Below are positions 34,202-57,678 of a stretch of DNA of 64,000 nucleotides, piece after piece. Below the pieces are notes generated by a model. It saw only the letters and a list, made by a program, of their open reading frames with translations. It searched no databases and had not been told where the DNA came from. The first letter of the stretch is position 1, and each line of letters starts with the position of its first letter. Both the position numbers and the translations under genes were made by a program. The stretch is from Acidobacteriota bacterium (GTDB taxonomy: Bacteria > Acidobacteriota > Blastocatellia > RBC074), in the NCBI GenBank assembly GCA_016196035.1, contig JACPYM010000099.1:64869-128868 (forward strand), in the 5' to 3' direction.

Positions 34202-34373
34202 AAGCCCTGAAAGGGCGACATCCAATAGCCCAGGGCAACGCCCTGGGTAACGGCGAAGCGAAGTAAAATACAAGCCCTGAAAGGGCGCAATAAGCGCAAT
34301 AAGCTTTTCACTCATTCGAACGTGGCACCAGGGGCGTTGCCCCTGGCTATTGAATGTCGCCCTTTCAGGGCTT
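34202..34373. repeat. Palindromic element, family B (copy 1)
   Basis: Arms at 34202-34247 and 34328-34373 (outer AAGCCCTGAAAGGGCG, inner CAATAGCCCAGGGCAACG and complements) enclose a further copy of AAGCCCTGAAAGGGCG at 34272-34287. Related copies lie at 43945-44122 (inside a gene) and 57512-57678. Confidence 0.9.
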
Positions 34374-41326: not shown

Positions 41327-44300
41327 TTAATTTTTAACGGGAGCTGTTTGGCTTGGCGGCGCTGATTGTTGCGGTTGCGCTTCGGGCTGCGGCTGTTTCT
41401 CTTCCTTCGGCGGCGCGGGTTTGGCCGGTTGCACAATCGTCCACAGGAACAACAAGCGCGGCGTGCGATGCGTCATGCCTGACAACCCATCGCGCATCCA
41501 CATCTGGCTGCCCTCGAATGACAGCACGTTGAAGCGGTACTTGCCCGGCAATTGCCACGCCAGGCGCGCACCGTGGTTGGTCATCCACATATCGCCCGTG
41601 GTCAGGCGGCGCAGCGGCGCGCCTTCCAGCAATTGCAGCATCTGCGACGAGAGTTGATTGAGCGTCACCAGCGGCGTCAGCGACAACCCGGTGCGCGTCC
41701 AGTTAAACGTCGGTTGAATATACGCCGTCAGCGTGCGTGAAGCGCCGACGCTGAAGCGTTCGCCCGCCAGCCAGTTGACGCTGACGGTGGACGTCCATTG
41801 AAACCAGGGATTGACGGGCGTCCAGTTCGTGCTGACATTCAGCGAGGTGAGGATGTTGTTGGCGCGTTGATTGACCGTGTCGCGGAACCAGTTGCGCGAA
41901 CCGCCGACGGTCACGGCGAGCGCGCCCAGCTTCGGCTTTTGCAGCGTCTCGGTGAGATTGACGTTGACGCCATCGCGGCCCTGATCGGCCAAGCCGATGA
42001 TGCCCGGCTGCGTGCGGTTGCTGGTCGTGGTGCGCGCAACGTTCGCGCCCACCGAAAGCATGGTGCTGAAGGTGGCGTCTTTGACCGTCTTGTGCGTCAG
42101 TTGTTTCGCCCAGTTCAGATTGACGTTGTTCAGGCCCACGTGCGCGCGATTGTCGTAGCGGAAATCGCTCTGCAAATACTGGTACTGGCCGGAAAAGGTG
42201 CCGTACAATGTGTTGCGCGAAATGGCGAAGTCTACGCCGCGCCGGTCACTCGCACTGAGTTGCGTCAACGACGCCGTCGCCGGAATCGAATAGTTGGGCG
42301 AGACATCGCGAAATGAAAAACTGATATTCGCCTTGTGCCAGGTGCCGACGAAGCCCGTGCGCCAGGCCCGTCCGAATTGCCGCCGCGCTTCGGCAGCGAG
42401 GCGATTCACATTGTTCGAGGTGATCGCGTATTCCGAGACCCAGTTCCAATCTTTGTTCAACTTGACCGCCAGCAAACTGCCATACGAATCGCCCACGCGC
42501 GGCGTCGCGAAAGCGTCAATCTGCGTGAGGGGGTTCCCTTCCACGTCATACCCGATCTTGAGCGGATGGCCGCCGACATCGTTCGCGCTCAGCCACATCA
42601 AACGGAACTTCACGCGCTCCGGGTCTTTCGTAAACGCAGGCGCGTCGTAGCTGCCGCCATAAACGCGCTGATGAAAGCCGAAGCCGATGCCTTCGCCCTG
42701 GCCTTTGTCATTGGTGTTGCGATAGAAGCCAAACGTGCCGCCCGGCGTTTTCAAGGCCAACTCGACGCCTTCGCGCGCAAAACCGGTTGAAACATATTCG
42801 GCGTTCAGAAAGCTCTGCGGCGAGACCATGCCGAAGCGCAAATCAATGCCCCACTGCGGGCCTGTCAAACCAGTTTGGCCCGGCTGGCCTGCCGCCGGAT
42901 TGGGCTGCGCCGGATTGGCCGCCGCGCCAAACGGCCACTCGCGGCCAAAGTGAAAGATGTAATCGTTGAAGCGGCCCAGCGAATGGCGCGGATTGGGGCT
43001 GAGCAACGAATTGAGCAGGCCGCTGCCATTCATCTCGGTGAGCCAGGGGCCGTTTTTGTAGCGGCCCTGCATCGAGAGCGACAGGTTGTGCGTGTCCTGC
43101 TCGCTGCCCGAAATGTCTTGCTGATTGGAAGCGGCTTCCCATTTGAATTCTTTTTCGACGGCTGGCACAGGCGCCGCGCCATCGGGCGCTTGCTGCGCGG
43201 CAGCGGCCTCGGCAGCAGCCGTGGCTTCGGCATTCGCCGCGCCAGTCGCTGTCGTCGTTTGCTCCGCGTCGGTGCCTTTGGTTTCCGGGTCAGCCTGTTC
43301 GGTGGTGGCCGCCGCATTGACGGTGAAGAACCAACCCAATGCTTCTTCGCCCACGTTCAACAGAAGCTGGTGTTTTCCATTCGTCAGCGGAATCGTCGGT
43401 TGAAAAGCGACCTGCCTGTCAGTGATCTTGGCGAGCGCGCTGTAATCGGTGTCGTCAATTTGCAAACCGACCTCGCTCGGTTGAATGGGTGCGTTGAAAT
43501 CAATGCTGACCGCCGGCGTCGCGGTTTTGACGAAGGCGTCAGGCAAGGGCGAACGCGCGGCGATCATGGCGGTCAGCTTGGGCGATGGCGGCGGCGCGGT
43601 CTGGGTTTGTGGCGCTGGCGGCTCTGCTTGGTTTGGCGGCGCAGTTGTTGTTTTTTGCGCCGGTTGATTTTGCGGTTCAGTCGCCGTCTTTTGTGCCGGT
43701 TGTTGTTTTGGCGCGACGGTCGTGCTTGCCGGTGTTTTGGTTTGCGCCACAGCCACAGCGTCATCCTTCTCTTTTCCAATAGCCCAACCGTGCGCACCGT
43801 AAATCGGTGAAGCGGCAGCGGGGCTTGGCGTATCAACTTCGGCAACATCGGCCTGCAATTCAGCCATCGCTGAAACAGGTACAAACGTGACCGGTGTCTC
43901 TGCCTGTGACGACTCTATAGACCGGTTCAAATCATGGGCTGCCGTGTCCCTGAAAGGGACAAATTCAATAGCCGGGGGCAACGCCCCCGGACAAGGTAGT
44001 TCCGTGCCCGACCCTGAAGGGGTCGCATTTGAATCGGTCTGCGACCCCTTCAGGGTCGGGGGATCACACGCGCTATTCCGGGGGCCATGCCCCCGGCTAT
44101 TGAATTGCGCCCTTTCAGGGCTGCCAAAGCGTGTTTGTGGCTTTGCCAGCAATGCCAATTCTGCTGAAACCCCGTCGCTCCCGCTCACAGTACTGTCACG
44201 TCTGCCCGCCATACCCGCCGCCACTTCCGGCCAGGCAATCTGCCAATCCAGTTTTTCGACCGGCAACAACGAACTGGTTTTCTGCGGCTTCGGCAAAAAG

Positions 44301-47300
44301 TTGTAGCGCTCGCTGGTCATCAGCAAACGGCCTTTCAAATTGAAGGCTTCGACGCGCCAGTAATACAGCACACCCGGCTGAAATTTGTCGGAGAGCTTCT
44401 TTACATCCAGCTTGGCATTCGCGGTCGCAAAGCGTTTGATCACCAGTTTGCCCGCTACGTCACTGGTGATTGTCACGCGGTAAATGACCGCCGCGCGCAC
44501 GGGCTGCCATTCCAAAATCGTCGTGTCCGTTGGTGAAGTCAGCGCGACAGGTTTTAGCGCGCCCGGTGTCAAACGGTTGATGCGCCGCATCGCGGCGGGT
44601 TCGCGCAAATTGCCCGCCGTCTCGACCACGCGCGCCGTCCACCACAATTCGCCTTCGGGCAAGGCTTGCCAGACGGCGAGCGGCACCTGCCATTCGGTGC
44701 CCGTCACGTCGTGCCATTGCGTGATCGTGTTAAAAAAGGGCTGCGTCGAAAAACCGATTTGGTATTTCATCGCGCCGGGCACGGGCGTCCAGCGCAACAC
44801 CGGCGTCTGTTCGGCGACATAGCCCGCGCCGGAATTGGGCTCGAGCAGGCGCAACATCTTCCAGGTGCCGTTGTTGATGATGATCTCGACCGGCGGCGAC
44901 TGAATCATGTTCGGCGACGTGATTTTGATTTCGAGCCGGTGCGGCCCCAGATAGATCGTCGGCAGCGGATTGTTCGGGCGCAGCGTGCGGCGCTCGCCCG
45001 CCGTGAAGTTGAGCGCGAACTGCTCGGTGACGTTGCCATCCCACAACCATTGGCCGATCACGGTGCCAGTACCCGCGCCTGCCAGCACGGCTTCGGCAAT
45101 GAGTCGCTCGCCTTGCGAGATGACGGTGCCGTTGCGCGGATAGATGATCAGCACGCTGGTGATCTGCAACGGCGCGCCCAGCGAACTGCCGCCCTGCACG
45201 CGCAAAGGTTTCGTCGTGCGCGAGCCATTCGCCCCGGTGCTGGTCAAATCGGCGTTGACCACGTCTACCGCGCGCATGTTGAGCGTGGCGTTGTTGGCGA
45301 CGCTGACGACAGCGTAAATCATCGTCTCGTTCACACGATTGACCGATTCGACCAGGATGTCGGCGGCGGGCATCAAGCCTGCATTGCTTTCGCTCGGGCC
45401 GATCACGACGCGCGCGCCGGGCCGGAAATTCGCGCCGATCAGCGTCAGGCGCACTTGCCGCGCGCCCTGGGCGACGGCGCTGGCGGTGACGGTGTTCAAG
45501 GTCGGCGGTGGCAACGGGCGCGGCGTGATTGTGAAGACAGCCGCGTTGGAAGTTCCGCCACCGGGCACGGGGTTGAACACGGTGATTTGAGCCGTGCCCG
45601 TGTTGGCGACATCTGCCGCTGGCACCTGCACGGCCAGTTGCGTGCCGCCGACGAAGCGCGCCGTGCGATTCGCGCCGTTCCAACGCACGACCGACGCGGG
45701 CAGGAAGCCGTTGCCATTGATCGTCAGCGTGAATTCGCCGCTGCCTGCGACGATGGAATTGGGGATGATCGCGGCGATGACGGGCGCGGGATTGTTGACG
45801 TTGATCGTCAGCGCGTTGGATTGGCCACCGCCCGGCGCGGGATTGAATACGGCGATGCTGGCGGTACCCGCGTTGAGCAAATCGGACGCGGGGATTTGCG
45901 CGCTCAACTGCGTGGCCGACACGAACATCGTCGGGCGGTTCGCGCCGTTCCAGCGCAGCACCGAATTCGCCACAAAGTTCGTGCCCGTGACTAGCAGCGT
46001 CACGCCCTGTGCGCCCGCCGCGAGCGGATTGGGCGTGGCAGCGGTCAGCGTCGGCACAGGGTTTTGCTGTTGGTTGATCGTAAAGGTCAGCGCATTGGAC
46101 GTGCCGCCGCCCGCGCCTGCCACGTTGGGTGGATTGAGCACCGTCACTGCCGCCGTGCCCGCGCTGGCGATGTCCGTCGCGGGAATCTGCGCCATCAATT
46201 GCGTCGCCGACACAATTGTGGTCGGGCGGTTCGCACCGTTCCAATGCACCACCGAGGTGTTGATGAAATTCGTGCCGGTCAGCATCAGGGCGAAACCCGC
46301 GCCGCCTGCGTTCACCGCATTGGGCGTCAAACTCGTCAAGGTCGGCACGGGCGCAGGCGCTTGGTTGATCGTAAACGGCAAGCTATTCGACGTGCCGCCG
46401 CCCCCGCTGGCATTGGGCGGATTGAAGACTGCGACCGTCGCCGTGCCTGTGTTGGCAATGTCCGTGGGCGGAATCTGCGCCATCAGTTGCGTCGCCGAAA
46501 GAAACGTCGTTGGGCGATCCGTGCCATTCCAGCGCAGCACTGAACTGTTGATGAAATTTGCGCCCGTGACCGTCAGCGTGAATCCGGCGCTGCCCGCATT
46601 GGCCGCGCTGGGATTGAGGGCGGTCAGGCGCGGCACGGGATTGGGCGCGACATTGATGGTGAACGGCACCGGGTTCGACGAGCCGCCGCCGCTGCCATTG
46701 GTGTTGGGCGGATTGAAGACGGTCACGTTCGCCACGCCCGCGTTGGCAATGTCGGTCGCGGGAATTTGCGCGCCGAGTTGCGTGGCGTTGATGAATTGCG
46801 TCGTGCGATTCTGCCCGTTCCAGCGCACGACCGAACCGGCAATGAAGCCGCTGCCGTTGACCGTCAAGGCGAACGCGGGGCTGCCCGCAACTGCCGCGTT
46901 CGGCGTAATCGAAATGACGATGGGTGCGGGGTTGTTGATGTTGATCGTTAGCGCATTCGATTGACCGCCGCCGGGCGCGGGATTGAACACCACGATGCTG
47001 GCCGTGCCTGCTGCATCTAAATCCGTCGCGGGAATCAACACGCTCAACTGGGTGCTTGAAATGAACGTCGTTTGCCGGTTTGCGCCGTTCCAGCGCAACA
47101 CCGAACCGGCGACGAAATTTGCCCCCGTCACCAGCAAGGTCACGCCCGGCGTCCCGACCTGAATCGGGTTCGGCGTGGCGTTGATGAGCGTGGGCACGGG
47201 GTTCTGGGCCTGAATGATCGTGAAAGGTAAGGCGTTCGTCGTGCCGCCACCGCCGCCCGCATTCGGCGGATTGAAGACCGCCACCGAAGCCGTGCCCGCG

Positions 47301-48763
47301 TTGGCGATGTCTGTCGCCGGAATCTGCGCCATCAACTGTGTCGCCGAAACAAAAGTCGTGGGGCGATCTGCGCCGTTCCAGCGCGCGACGGACGTGTTGC
47401 TGAAATTCGTGCCCGACAGCATCAAGGTGAAGCCCGCGCTGCCCGCGTTCGCCGTGTTTGGATTGAGGCTGGTCAGCGTCGGCACAGGCGCGGGCGCTTG
47501 ATTGATCGTGAAGGGCAAGGCGTTCGAGCTGAGTCCGCCCGCGCCATTGGGATCGGTGTTAAAGACCGTCACACTCGCGCTGCCCGCATTTGCCAGATCG
47601 CTGGCGGGAATCTGCGCGCTCAATTGCGACGCCGAAAGAAAGGTGGTCGGACGATTCGCGCCATTCCAACGCACCACCGAGAACACGCCGAAATTCGTGC
47701 CTGTCAGCATCAAGTTGAGCGGCGGACTGCCCGCGTTCGCCGTGTTCGGATTGAGGCTGATGAGTGTCGGTGTGGGAGTCGGTGCCGCATTGATCGTGAA
47801 CGTGACGGGATTGGAGGTGCCGCCGCCTGCGCCCGCCGTGTTGGGCGGATTGAAAACAGTCACGCTGGCACTGCCCCCATTGGCGATGTCGCTGGCGGGA
47901 ATTTGCGCGCTCAATTGTGTCGCCGAGAGGAACTGCGTCGGACGATTCGACCCATTCCAGCGTGCGACCGAGCCATTGATAAAGTTCGCGCCCGTCAGCG
48001 TCAGCGTAAACGCCCCGCCGCCCGCCGTCGCTTGATTGGGATTGAGATTGATCAACGTCGGCACCGGATTGGCCGCTTGATTGATCGTAAAGGAAACAGG
48101 GCTGGACGTGCCGCCACCCACACCTGCTGTGTTCGGCGGCGTAAAAACGGTCACGCTGGCGCTGCCAGGTGCCGCGATGTCACTGGCGGGAACCTGCGCG
48201 GTTAATTGTGTCGCTGACAAGAAATTCGTCGGCAGATTCGACCCGTTCCAACGCGCGACCGATGCATTGACGAAATTCGCGCCGTTCAACGTCAACGTGA
48301 AGGCCGGGCCGCCGGCATTCGCCGCGTTCGGGTTGAGACTGAGCAAGGTCGGCGCGGGCGGCGCGGGTTGGGTGATCGTGAAGATCAGCGGATTGGAAGC
48401 GCCGCCGCCTGCGCCGGGATTGAAGGCCGTCACTTGCGCGGTGCCCGCCACGGCCAAATCCGCCGCCGTGATGAGCGCCGTCAATTGCGCGGTCGAAATG
48501 AAATTGGTCGGACGATCTGCGCCGTTCCAGCGCACGGTCGTCAGGCGGTTGAAATTCAAACCGCTGACCGTGATGGTCAAGCCGGGCGTACCGGCTTGCG
48601 CAGAATTGGGGGCCAGGCCGGTCAGTGTCGGCACATTGGTTTGCGCGATTGCCAACACGCCCGTGCTGACCAGCGCCAGCCATAAACAGACGCTCCAGGC
48701 GCGTCTGTTGAAAAGCCCGTAGAAAAAAATGCCGAATTGTATTGAGCTGCGACTCCGCTTCAC
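41327..48763 (-). CDS. Giant IPT/TIG-repeat protein with C-terminal outer-membrane barrel
   Basis: A 2478-residue exported protein from the GTG at 48763, preceded by GGAGAG. Signal region: AWSVCLWLALVSTGVLAIAQ. Residues about 43-1170 hold twelve IPT/TIG-like beta-sandwich repeats of about 90-95 residues, most with the phrase RWNGANRPT, then SATQLSAQIPA and VFNPPN. Next comes a region with fibronectin-like features (VLRWTPVPGAMKYQIG, LYYWRVEAFNLKGRLL). Residues about 1547-1607 are encoded by an inserted family B palindrome. A Pro/Gln/Thr-rich linker follows, then from about residue 1890 a segment of alternating beta-strands (LSLSMQGRYKNGPWLTEMNG to LFLWTIVQPAKP) typical of an outer-membrane barrel, with a Pro/Gln-rich tail. 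The plan resembles an adhesin-like or autotransporter-like surface protein; its biochemical role is unknown. Confidence 0.85.
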   Translation of the reverse strand: MKRSRSSIQFGIFFYGLFNRRAWSVCLWLALVSTGVLAIAQTNVPTLTGLAPNSAQAGTPGLTITVSGLNFNRLTTVRWNGADRPTNFISTAQLTALITAADLAVAGTAQVTAFNPGAGGGASNPLIFTITQPAPPAPTLLSLNPNAANAGGPAFTLTLNGANFVNASVARWNGSNLPTNFLSATQLTAQVPASDIAAPGSASVTVFTPPNTAGVGGGTSSPVSFTINQAANPVPTLINLNPNQATAGGGAFTLTLTGANFINGSVARWNGSNRPTQFLSATQLSAQIPASDIANGGSASVTVFNPPNTAGAGGGTSNPVTFTINAAPTPTPTLISLNPNTANAGSPPLNLMLTGTNFGVFSVVRWNGANRPTTFLSASQLSAQIPASDLANAGSASVTVFNTDPNGAGGLSSNALPFTINQAPAPVPTLTSLNPNTANAGSAGFTLMLSGTNFSNTSVARWNGADRPTTFVSATQLMAQIPATDIANAGTASVAVFNPPNAGGGGGTTNALPFTIIQAQNPVPTLINATPNPIQVGTPGVTLLVTGANFVAGSVLRWNGANRQTTFISSTQLSVLIPATDLDAAGTASIVVFNPAPGGGQSNALTININNPAPIVISITPNAAVAGSPAFALTVNGSGFIAGSVVRWNGQNRTTQFINATQLGAQIPATDIANAGVANVTVFNPPNTNGSGGGSSNPVPFTINVAPNPVPRLTALNPSAANAGSAGFTLTVTGANFINSSVLRWNGTDRPTTFLSATQLMAQIPPTDIANTGTATVAVFNPPNASGGGGTSNSLPFTINQAPAPVPTLTSLTPNAVNAGGAGFALMLTGTNFINTSVVHWNGANRPTTIVSATQLMAQIPATDIASAGTAAVTVLNPPNVAGAGGGTSNALTFTINQQQNPVPTLTAATPNPLAAGAQGVTLLVTGTNFVANSVLRWNGANRPTMFVSATQLSAQIPASDLLNAGTASIAVFNPAPGGGQSNALTINVNNPAPVIAAIIPNSIVAGSGEFTLTINGNGFLPASVVRWNGANRTARFVGGTQLAVQVPAADVANTGTAQITVFNPVPGGGTSNAAVFTITPRPLPPPTLNTVTASAVAQGARQVRLTLIGANFRPGARVVIGPSESNAGLMPAADILVESVNRVNETMIYAVVSVANNATLNMRAVDVVNADLTSTGANGSRTTKPLRVQGGSSLGAPLQITSVLIIYPRNGTVISQGERLIAEAVLAGAGTGTVIGQWLWDGNVTEQFALNFTAGERRTLRPNNPLPTIYLGPHRLEIKITSPNMIQSPPVEIIINNGTWKMLRLLEPNSGAGYVAEQTPVLRWTPVPGAMKYQIGFSTQPFFNTITQWHDVTGTEWQVPLAVWQALPEGELWWTARVVETAGNLREPAAMRRINRLTPGALKPVALTSPTDTTILEWQPVRAAVIYRVTITSDVAGKLVIKRFATANAKLDVKKLSDKFQPGVLYYWRVEAFNLKGRLLMTSERYNFLPKPQKTSSLLPVEKLDWQIAWPEVAAGMAGRRDSTVSGSDGVSAELALLAKPQTRFGSPERAQFNSRGHGPRNSACDPPTLKGSQTDSNATPSGSGTELPCPGALPPAIEFVPFRDTAAHDLNRSIESSQAETPVTFVPVSAMAELQADVAEVDTPSPAAASPIYGAHGWAIGKEKDDAVAVAQTKTPASTTVAPKQQPAQKTATEPQNQPAQKTTTAPPNQAEPPAPQTQTAPPPSPKLTAMIAARSPLPDAFVKTATPAVSIDFNAPIQPSEVGLQIDDTDYSALAKITDRQVAFQPTIPLTNGKHQLLLNVGEEALGWFFTVNAAATTEQADPETKGTDAEQTTTATGAANAEATAAAEAAAAQQAPDGAAPVPAVEKEFKWEAASNQQDISGSEQDTHNLSLSMQGRYKNGPWLTEMNGSGLLNSLLSPNPRHSLGRFNDYIFHFGREWPFGAAANPAQPNPAAGQPGQTGLTGPQWGIDLRFGMVSPQSFLNAEYVSTGFAREGVELALKTPGGTFGFYRNTNDKGQGEGIGFGFHQRVYGGSYDAPAFTKDPERVKFRLMWLSANDVGGHPLKIGYDVEGNPLTQIDAFATPRVGDSYGSLLAVKLNKDWNWVSEYAITSNNVNRLAAEARRQFGRAWRTGFVGTWHKANISFSFRDVSPNYSIPATASLTQLSASDRRGVDFAISRNTLYGTFSGQYQYLQSDFRYDNRAHVGLNNVNLNWAKQLTHKTVKDATFSTMLSVGANVARTTTSNRTQPGIIGLADQGRDGVNVNLTETLQKPKLGALAVTVGGSRNWFRDTVNQRANNILTSLNVSTNWTPVNPWFQWTSTVSVNWLAGERFSVGASRTLTAYIQPTFNWTRTGLSLTPLVTLNQLSSQMLQLLEGAPLRRLTTGDMWMTNHGARLAWQLPGKYRFNVLSFEGSQMWMRDGLSGMTHRTPRLLFLWTIVQPAKPAPPKEEKQPQPEAQPQQSAPPSQTAPVKN
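43945..44122. repeat. Palindromic element, family B (copy 2), inside the IPT/barrel gene
   Basis: Outer arms 43945-43990 and 44078-44122 (CCCTGAAAGGG, CAATAGCCGGGGGCAACGCC and complements) enclose an inner palindrome at 44006-44062 (CCGACCCTGAAGGGGTCGCA and complement). It contributes about 60 residues in frame with no stop codon. The translation there (Pro/Ser/Arg-rich, with DPPTLKGSQTDSNATPSGSG) is unlike the rest of the protein. Confidence 0.93.
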
Positions 48764-57480: not shown

Positions 57481-57511
57481 AAGAGTAATAGCGGAACCTA
57501 TGATCTGAAGC

Positions 57512-57678
57512 CCTGAAAGGGCGGCATTCAATAGCCGGGGGCAAGCAGAGCGCCGCCCCCGGTAACATAGGAAAAAACAGCAAGCCCTGAAAGGGCGAAA
57601 TCCAGCTATCAATTTCGCCCTTTCAGGGCTGCGTTTATTGATTTGACGTGACTATTGAATAGCGCCCTTTCAGGGCTT
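57512..57678. repeat. Palindromic element, family B (copy 3)
   Basis: Contains several copies of AAGCCCTGAAAGGGCG and its complement (57512-57527, 57583-57598, 57616-57631, 57662-57677) plus CAATAGCCGGGGGC. The right end directly abuts the stop codon of the ABC ATPase gene (57679-57681), so on the minus strand TGA is followed at once by AAGCCCTGAAAGG. Confidence 0.88.

Follow-up and report, generated by a model that had tools for sequence, protein, structure and literature searches.

The window analysed here, a 64,000-nt stretch of one contig (C99) of an Acidobacteriota genome, carries a giant gene with a palindromic element inside its reading frame, together with two further copies of the same element family. 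Hairpin arms are scored with R1, a model built from family arms that included some arms from transposase loci of this genome.

41327-48763, minus strand: host gene, 2478 aa, with 11 IPT/TIG repeats, an FN3-like part, the element, a linker and a C-terminal barrel-like part
43945-44122, no strand: palindromic element of 178 nt inside the host ORF, read here as a transposon end-pair that lacks the transposase gene
43947-43990, plus strand: arm 1, consisting of hairpin H1, linker, ATAG foot and hairpin H2 (R1, 54.3 bits, E 2.9e-11)
44007-44060, no strand: central palindrome of two inverted H1-like hairpins
44078-44121, minus strand: arm 2, an inverted copy of arm 1 (R1, 51.3 bits)
34203-34372, no strand: intergenic family copy with both arms (R1, 34204-34247 and 34328-34371)
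57510-57676, no strand: family copy with a strong arm at 57510-57562 and a weak partner at 57652-57676 (R1)

The 11 IPT/TIG domains are Pfam assignments (NCBIfam names choice-of-anchor Z, CoaZ-type, repeats), whereas the labels FN3-like, linker and barrel-like come from the preliminary description of the window and from our own reading. That description had reported a mobile-looking palindrome at 43945-44122, and the palindrome is confirmed: arms of 44 nt (43948-43991 and 44077-44120), 89% complementary and 85 nt apart, enclose a perfect inner palindrome (44007-44027/44040-44060), and as ssDNA the element is predicted to fold at -80.1 kcal/mol as compared with -35.5 +/- 3.4 for its shuffles (z = -13; 0/200 shuffles as good). 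It is a strong quasi-palindrome in which each arm is a double hairpin of the Acido-Lenti-1 type rather than a simple palindrome, and its 178 nt are not a multiple of three. The intact arms had also been taken to suggest that the insertion may be fairly recent. This dating finds no support, since the nearest family copy is only 81% identical and since intact stems in this family accompany compensatory changes. More recent activity of the family in the genome is shown by a subfamily with 97–98% identical copies, which does not date the window copy itself as recent. A unit of ~294 nt that contains the element is 95–98% identical in about ten places, several of them at contig ends, and represents a recently amplified subfamily (L059 1952-2245 and about nine others: L057, L061, L062, L064-L066, L069-L071).

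The family is dispersed, as had been suggested, with 103 blastn pieces in the genome (9.59 Mb, 139 contigs) and at least 118 matches to Rfam family RF01687 (Acido-Lenti-1), the latter being a lower bound from 150 scored candidates out of 3095; none of 14 control genomes has any RF01687 match. The two other members that the preliminary description placed at 34202 and 57512 are real, both being matched by R1. Merging the blastn and RF01687 lists gave ~90 places, 86 of which were fetched (all except C42:29, C114:117521, C122:20587 and C88:130101). Full-length copies share one plan, in which an H1 hairpin, a ~10-nt linker, a TAG foot, an H2 hairpin and a spacer lead to a central palindrome of two H1-like hairpins, followed by the mirror image. 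In an alignment that omits nine of ten near-identical duplicated copies, conservation beyond the arms stops about two bases before H1, and the H2 foot of 80 arms from this genome is ATAG in 55 and GTAG in 6. A set of 35 of the 46 non-redundant arms, which covers several lineages, shows two-sided changes in 12 of 14 stem pairs, with pairing in 92% of cells; 0/500 shuffles do as well, and shifting the stem partners along the alignment abolishes the signal. The double-hairpin structure has thus been maintained, and covariation is equally compatible with hairpins of ssDNA and of RNA, which it cannot tell apart. At two places the arms form direct tandems rather than inverted pairs (L078, C104:66120-66456, and L108, C50:37452-37628), with periods of ~75 and 66 nt. 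Names of miRNAs that came up on the element were chance palindrome matches below their own cut-offs, and one exact arm pattern searched against viral contigs gave no match. Within one taxonomic family the number of RF01687 matches per genome ranges from 2 to at least 150; in one of these genomes (G005) all 150 scored candidates were matches, those listed being mostly 47 nt, and its copy number is probably higher.

The same contig carries, about 38 kb from the window element, a gene for a 150-aa Y1 (HuH) transposase with a half-element on either side:

C99:146734-147381: 648-nt unit with halves at 146734-146818 and 147295-147381 and Y1_Tnp (PF01797) at 146921-147262 between them

Bases 1–84 of the window element correspond to the left half of this unit and bases 96–177 to the right half; the gene replaces the middle ~11 bases and sits in the loop of the central palindrome. 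With half-elements around the transposase gene, the window element resembles this transposon stripped of its gene, and it has what defines a MITE, ends as in an autonomous copy (C99:146734-147381) with the gene absent. There are 14 Y1_Tnp (PF01797) matches in the genome. R1 arms lie beside six of the seven genes of the same type, subclass 1.2 (see below), and 1.3 kb from the seventh (L035), and at 0/7 of the other Y1 loci. Three transposases (L032, L034 and L039) have the same mirrored ends with stem sequences of their own, and all 118 arms located by a pattern finder in the fetched copies could be allotted to whichever of six transposase arm types lay closest, with 103 at ≥80% identity. One transposase (L038) is single-copy, its next homologue in the genome being 49% identical, so that the several near-identical copies per genome expected of IS200/IS605 elements are not seen. 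Around another transposase gene (L036, C24), eight model matches with E < 0.005 are crowded into positions 1138-2954.

The TnpA-Y1 subclass 1.2 was defined by Quentin et al. (2018; PMC6006769) through its Y...Q..HH signature, its median length being given as 148 aa, and we assign the transposase to it by signature and length rather than by their profiles: it is 150 aa long, carries NHVH and YLAKQKIHH, and matches PF01797 and the NCBIfam IS200/IS605 family. Its HuH motif is NHVH as against the published consensus DH[IV]H. The signature, together with a HuH motif and ~150 residues, is present in 35/38 of the proteins. As described in that paper, the subclass occurs mainly in Cyanobacteria and Bacteroidetes, has a 'no' in the REP column, and is generally without the typical terminal structures of IS200.

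Transposases of this type occur in 125/162 genomes of the class. Inverted repeats scoring ≥22 join the two flanks at 23 of 37 class loci (including one duplicate, L160, and one subclass 1.1 gene, L031) compared with 6% of 1332 mismatched flank pairs. The pattern finder places an arm on at least one side of 30/37 of these loci and on both sides of 18/37, with a background of 44 matches per 187,246 strand-bases in 20 control loci. From a scan of genomes with named organisms, the best 80 of 576 loci were analysed, none of which had been used for R1; going by record titles, these include Acidobacteria, Planctomycetes, Verrucomicrobia, Bacteroidetes and Lentisphaera as well as Calditrichaceae, Ignavibacteria, Fibrobacteres, Zixibacteria and others. 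Flank repeats scoring ≥22 are present at 37 of the 76 testable loci (the flanks of 4/80 were too short) compared with 0.37% of mismatched pairs. Among the best 80 loci, 121 of 147 R1 matches fall within 300 nt of the gene, or 2.60 per kb versus 0.094 elsewhere, a 28-fold enrichment beside one transposase type, and a correctly oriented arm is found on at least one side at 46/80 and on both sides at 25/80. In the 20 control loci R1 has two matches, both in L190, which is the second in-frame copy described below. One record in the scan (L211, CAMBFS010000007.1) bears the title of a Klebsiella pneumoniae MAG; with a transposase that shares 66% identity with the query set, it is probably mislabelled.

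Several observations count against a transposon. A correctly oriented arm at E ≤ 0.05 is absent from 34/80 of the named loci, the element shows neither a target duplication nor an exact boundary, and three genomes (G001, G002 and G008) have 7, 14 and 38 RF01687 matches, yet no such transposase was detected in them, perhaps through loss or because the bins are incomplete.

The arms have been known under another name. RF01687 matches the window at 44078-44122 with 41.9 bits against a gathering score of 37, which makes this arm a member of the family (the model is written on the strand opposite to arm 2); arm 1 falls under the Rfam cut-off, yet reaches 54.3 bits with R1. The same Rfam model exceeds its cut-off beside the gene at 10 of 20 loci that had been picked for high R1 scores, so that arms next to transposase genes in other phyla share with the window arm a score above gathering. 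The Rfam annotation is that of an sRNA gene, whereas here the family behaves as a transposon end with gene-less derivatives. If Acido-Lenti-1 were instead a repeated structured RNA, a regulator or a terminator, the in-frame copy would be a chance overlap of an RNA gene with a coding frame. The Rfam listing speaks for this, as do the entry 'RNA? y' in the table of Weinberg (2010; PMC2864571) and a 2026 paper whose text treats the function as little known and suggests regulation of nearby proteases (PMC13298647). Inverted pairs, the wide range of copy number within one taxonomic family, the enrichment beside a single transposase type and copies inside reading frames speak against it, and we regard an RNA as quite unlikely. 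Copies of Acido-Lenti-1 are listed in PMC10059132, and RF01687 appears in a listing in PMC7682815. The available text of open-licence papers, including work on transposases of Acidobacteria and Planctomycetes, yielded no link between RF01687 and a transposase, and only two of the papers found (PMC3733652 and PMC6006769) join either phylum with such transposases.

Turning to the host gene, its ORF of 2478 codons is open throughout the element, which begins at residue 1548 and spans ~60 codons, in agreement with the original observation of about 60 in-frame residues at a domain junction; their translation is predicted from the sequence. An orthologue was found neither in the family (11 genomes) nor in the class (162 genomes), and a contig scan returned 0 relatives; matches outside the genome itself are either element copies or 33–38% identical in the FN3-like part. 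The giant IPT-repeat gene thus has no detectable orthologue even in the same genus, where the genome compared is 73% complete. Since neither an orthologue nor an empty site was found, we infer the insertion in the window gene by analogy with a second in-frame copy:

C34:24360-24562: second in-frame copy, 203 nt in a 1258-aa ORF between Peptidase_S9 and Amidohydro_3

Eight of the relatives' loci were aligned to establish the presence or absence of this copy. All seven fused orthologues that span the peptidase-amidohydrolase junction are without the ~110-residue linker that carries it, one of them being from the same genus and keeping a short linker of its own, while in the eighth relative (L193) the gene ends at the junction. 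The most likely course is thus a gain of the segment on the lineage leading to this genome. The copy accounts for ~68 of the ~110 linker residues, a point against the transposon reading. The ~40 linker residues beyond the element (L097, aa ~634–661 and ~732–759) are also absent from the relatives and are possibly the remains of another insertion.

Of the 86 places, these two alone fall within long ORFs that show evidence of coding on either side. L075 and L116, in small overlapping ORFs, and L051 and L130, at or before a likely gene start, were rejected and are excluded from this tally, as are shorter candidates that were not inspected singly. Because their reading frames differ, the two copies have no peptide in common, and a search for the element's peptide in other proteins, as had been proposed, returned other element copies, many with internal stops. 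The lengths of the two, 178 and 203 nt, are not divisible by three, so that the reading frame must have been preserved through minor additional changes or by selection. At least one frame is open in 31/44 full-length copies (mean 1.05 of 6 versus 0.82 in shuffles), and these 44 copies give no clear sign of adaptation to coding; together with the different frames, this means that it is enough for copies to persist wherever chance provides an open frame.

Alternatively, the host ORF might be, or once have been, two genes with the element at their junction. The position at a domain junction would fit, and third-position GC falls from 0.71 before the element to 0.44–0.56 for ~100 codons downstream. 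It then recovers to 0.67–0.86, the frame is single and open over its whole length, inspection by eye reveals no evident signal peptide in the low-complexity linker that opens the part after the element, and the relatives' gene at C34 is already fused although it lacks the element; on these grounds two genes seem unlikely. The palindromes could also be classic GTAG-type REPs of a class 2 RAYT, which would agree with the inverted pairs and with an NTAG foot at H2. This appears very improbable, as the five class-2-like or divergent Y1 loci of the genome (L040-L044) are without arms and the flanked genes have Y...Q..HH, not Y...NP.

In our judgement the window element very likely derives from a small transposon related to IS200, as a non-autonomous (MITE/REPIN-like) copy in which the loop of the central palindrome holds no gene. 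The autonomous form would consist of a double-hairpin arm, a spacer, a third hairpin, the gene for a 150-aa Y1 transposase of TnpA subclass 1.2, and the mirror image. The transposase would recognise the hairpins as ssDNA, with the NTAG foot of H2 as the guide, as do TnpA-REP and TnpA-IS200, and would move gene-less copies. The family, its structure, the ends in common with the transposase-bearing unit, the open frame and the gain at C34 are observed, while we infer transposition itself. Most copies would survive between genes and a few inside them, at domain junctions that tolerate an extra stop-free segment, and in the giant window gene such a copy would have become a linker segment of ~60 residues. 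We also lean towards a broader view in which Acido-Lenti-1, instead of being an RNA family, forms the terminal double hairpins of Y1 transposons (subclass 1.2) that span phyla. These would make up a third REP-like system besides those of class 2 and class 3, and their gene-less copies would time and again turn into linkers between protein domains.

The resemblance to REPs and REPINs (BIMEs) with their TnpA-REP (RAYT) lies in the inverted hairpin pairs, the TAG foot, the many dispersed copies and a cognate Y1 transposase that lies between such hairpins. The elements here differ in having two hairpins per arm and a third near the gene, in a foot that is mostly ATAG and not the GT[AG]G found 5' of REP hairpins, and in a transposase whose signature is not the Y---NP of class 2 TnpA and whose subclass is tabulated without REPs (PMC6006769). 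Rickettsia palindromic elements, which are palindromes of ~150 nt that add translated in-frame segments to proteins (PMC10969869), were an apt comparison in that a palindrome can be read in frame inside genes, and at the second copy presence and absence document a gain. The present family differs in its two clear in-gene cases among 86 places, its use of two frames with no conserved encoded peptide, and the fact that a likely transposase is known. REPs in coding frames have been described (Di Nocera 2013; PMC3733652), as have REPs in tnpA genes (Quentin 2018; PMC6006769); those reported there are mostly of the GTAG/CGTC families and give segments of 20–30 and up to 82 aa, whereas the present element belongs to another family and another transposase group. 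As a kind, palindromes linked to a transposase, some of them in frame, have been described before; what appears to be new is the group of transposases involved, the double hairpins at the ends and the identity of the Rfam family.

Our results provide a likely identity for an Rfam family listed since 2010 without a known function and for a transposase subclass to which the 2018 description ascribed no ends, and they make of both one testable system. They also place, outside Rickettsia, a transposon-derived palindrome in frame in a conserved two-domain enzyme whose relatives show the element-free state. Acido-Lenti-1 copies that are annotated as genes for small RNAs may have to be corrected.
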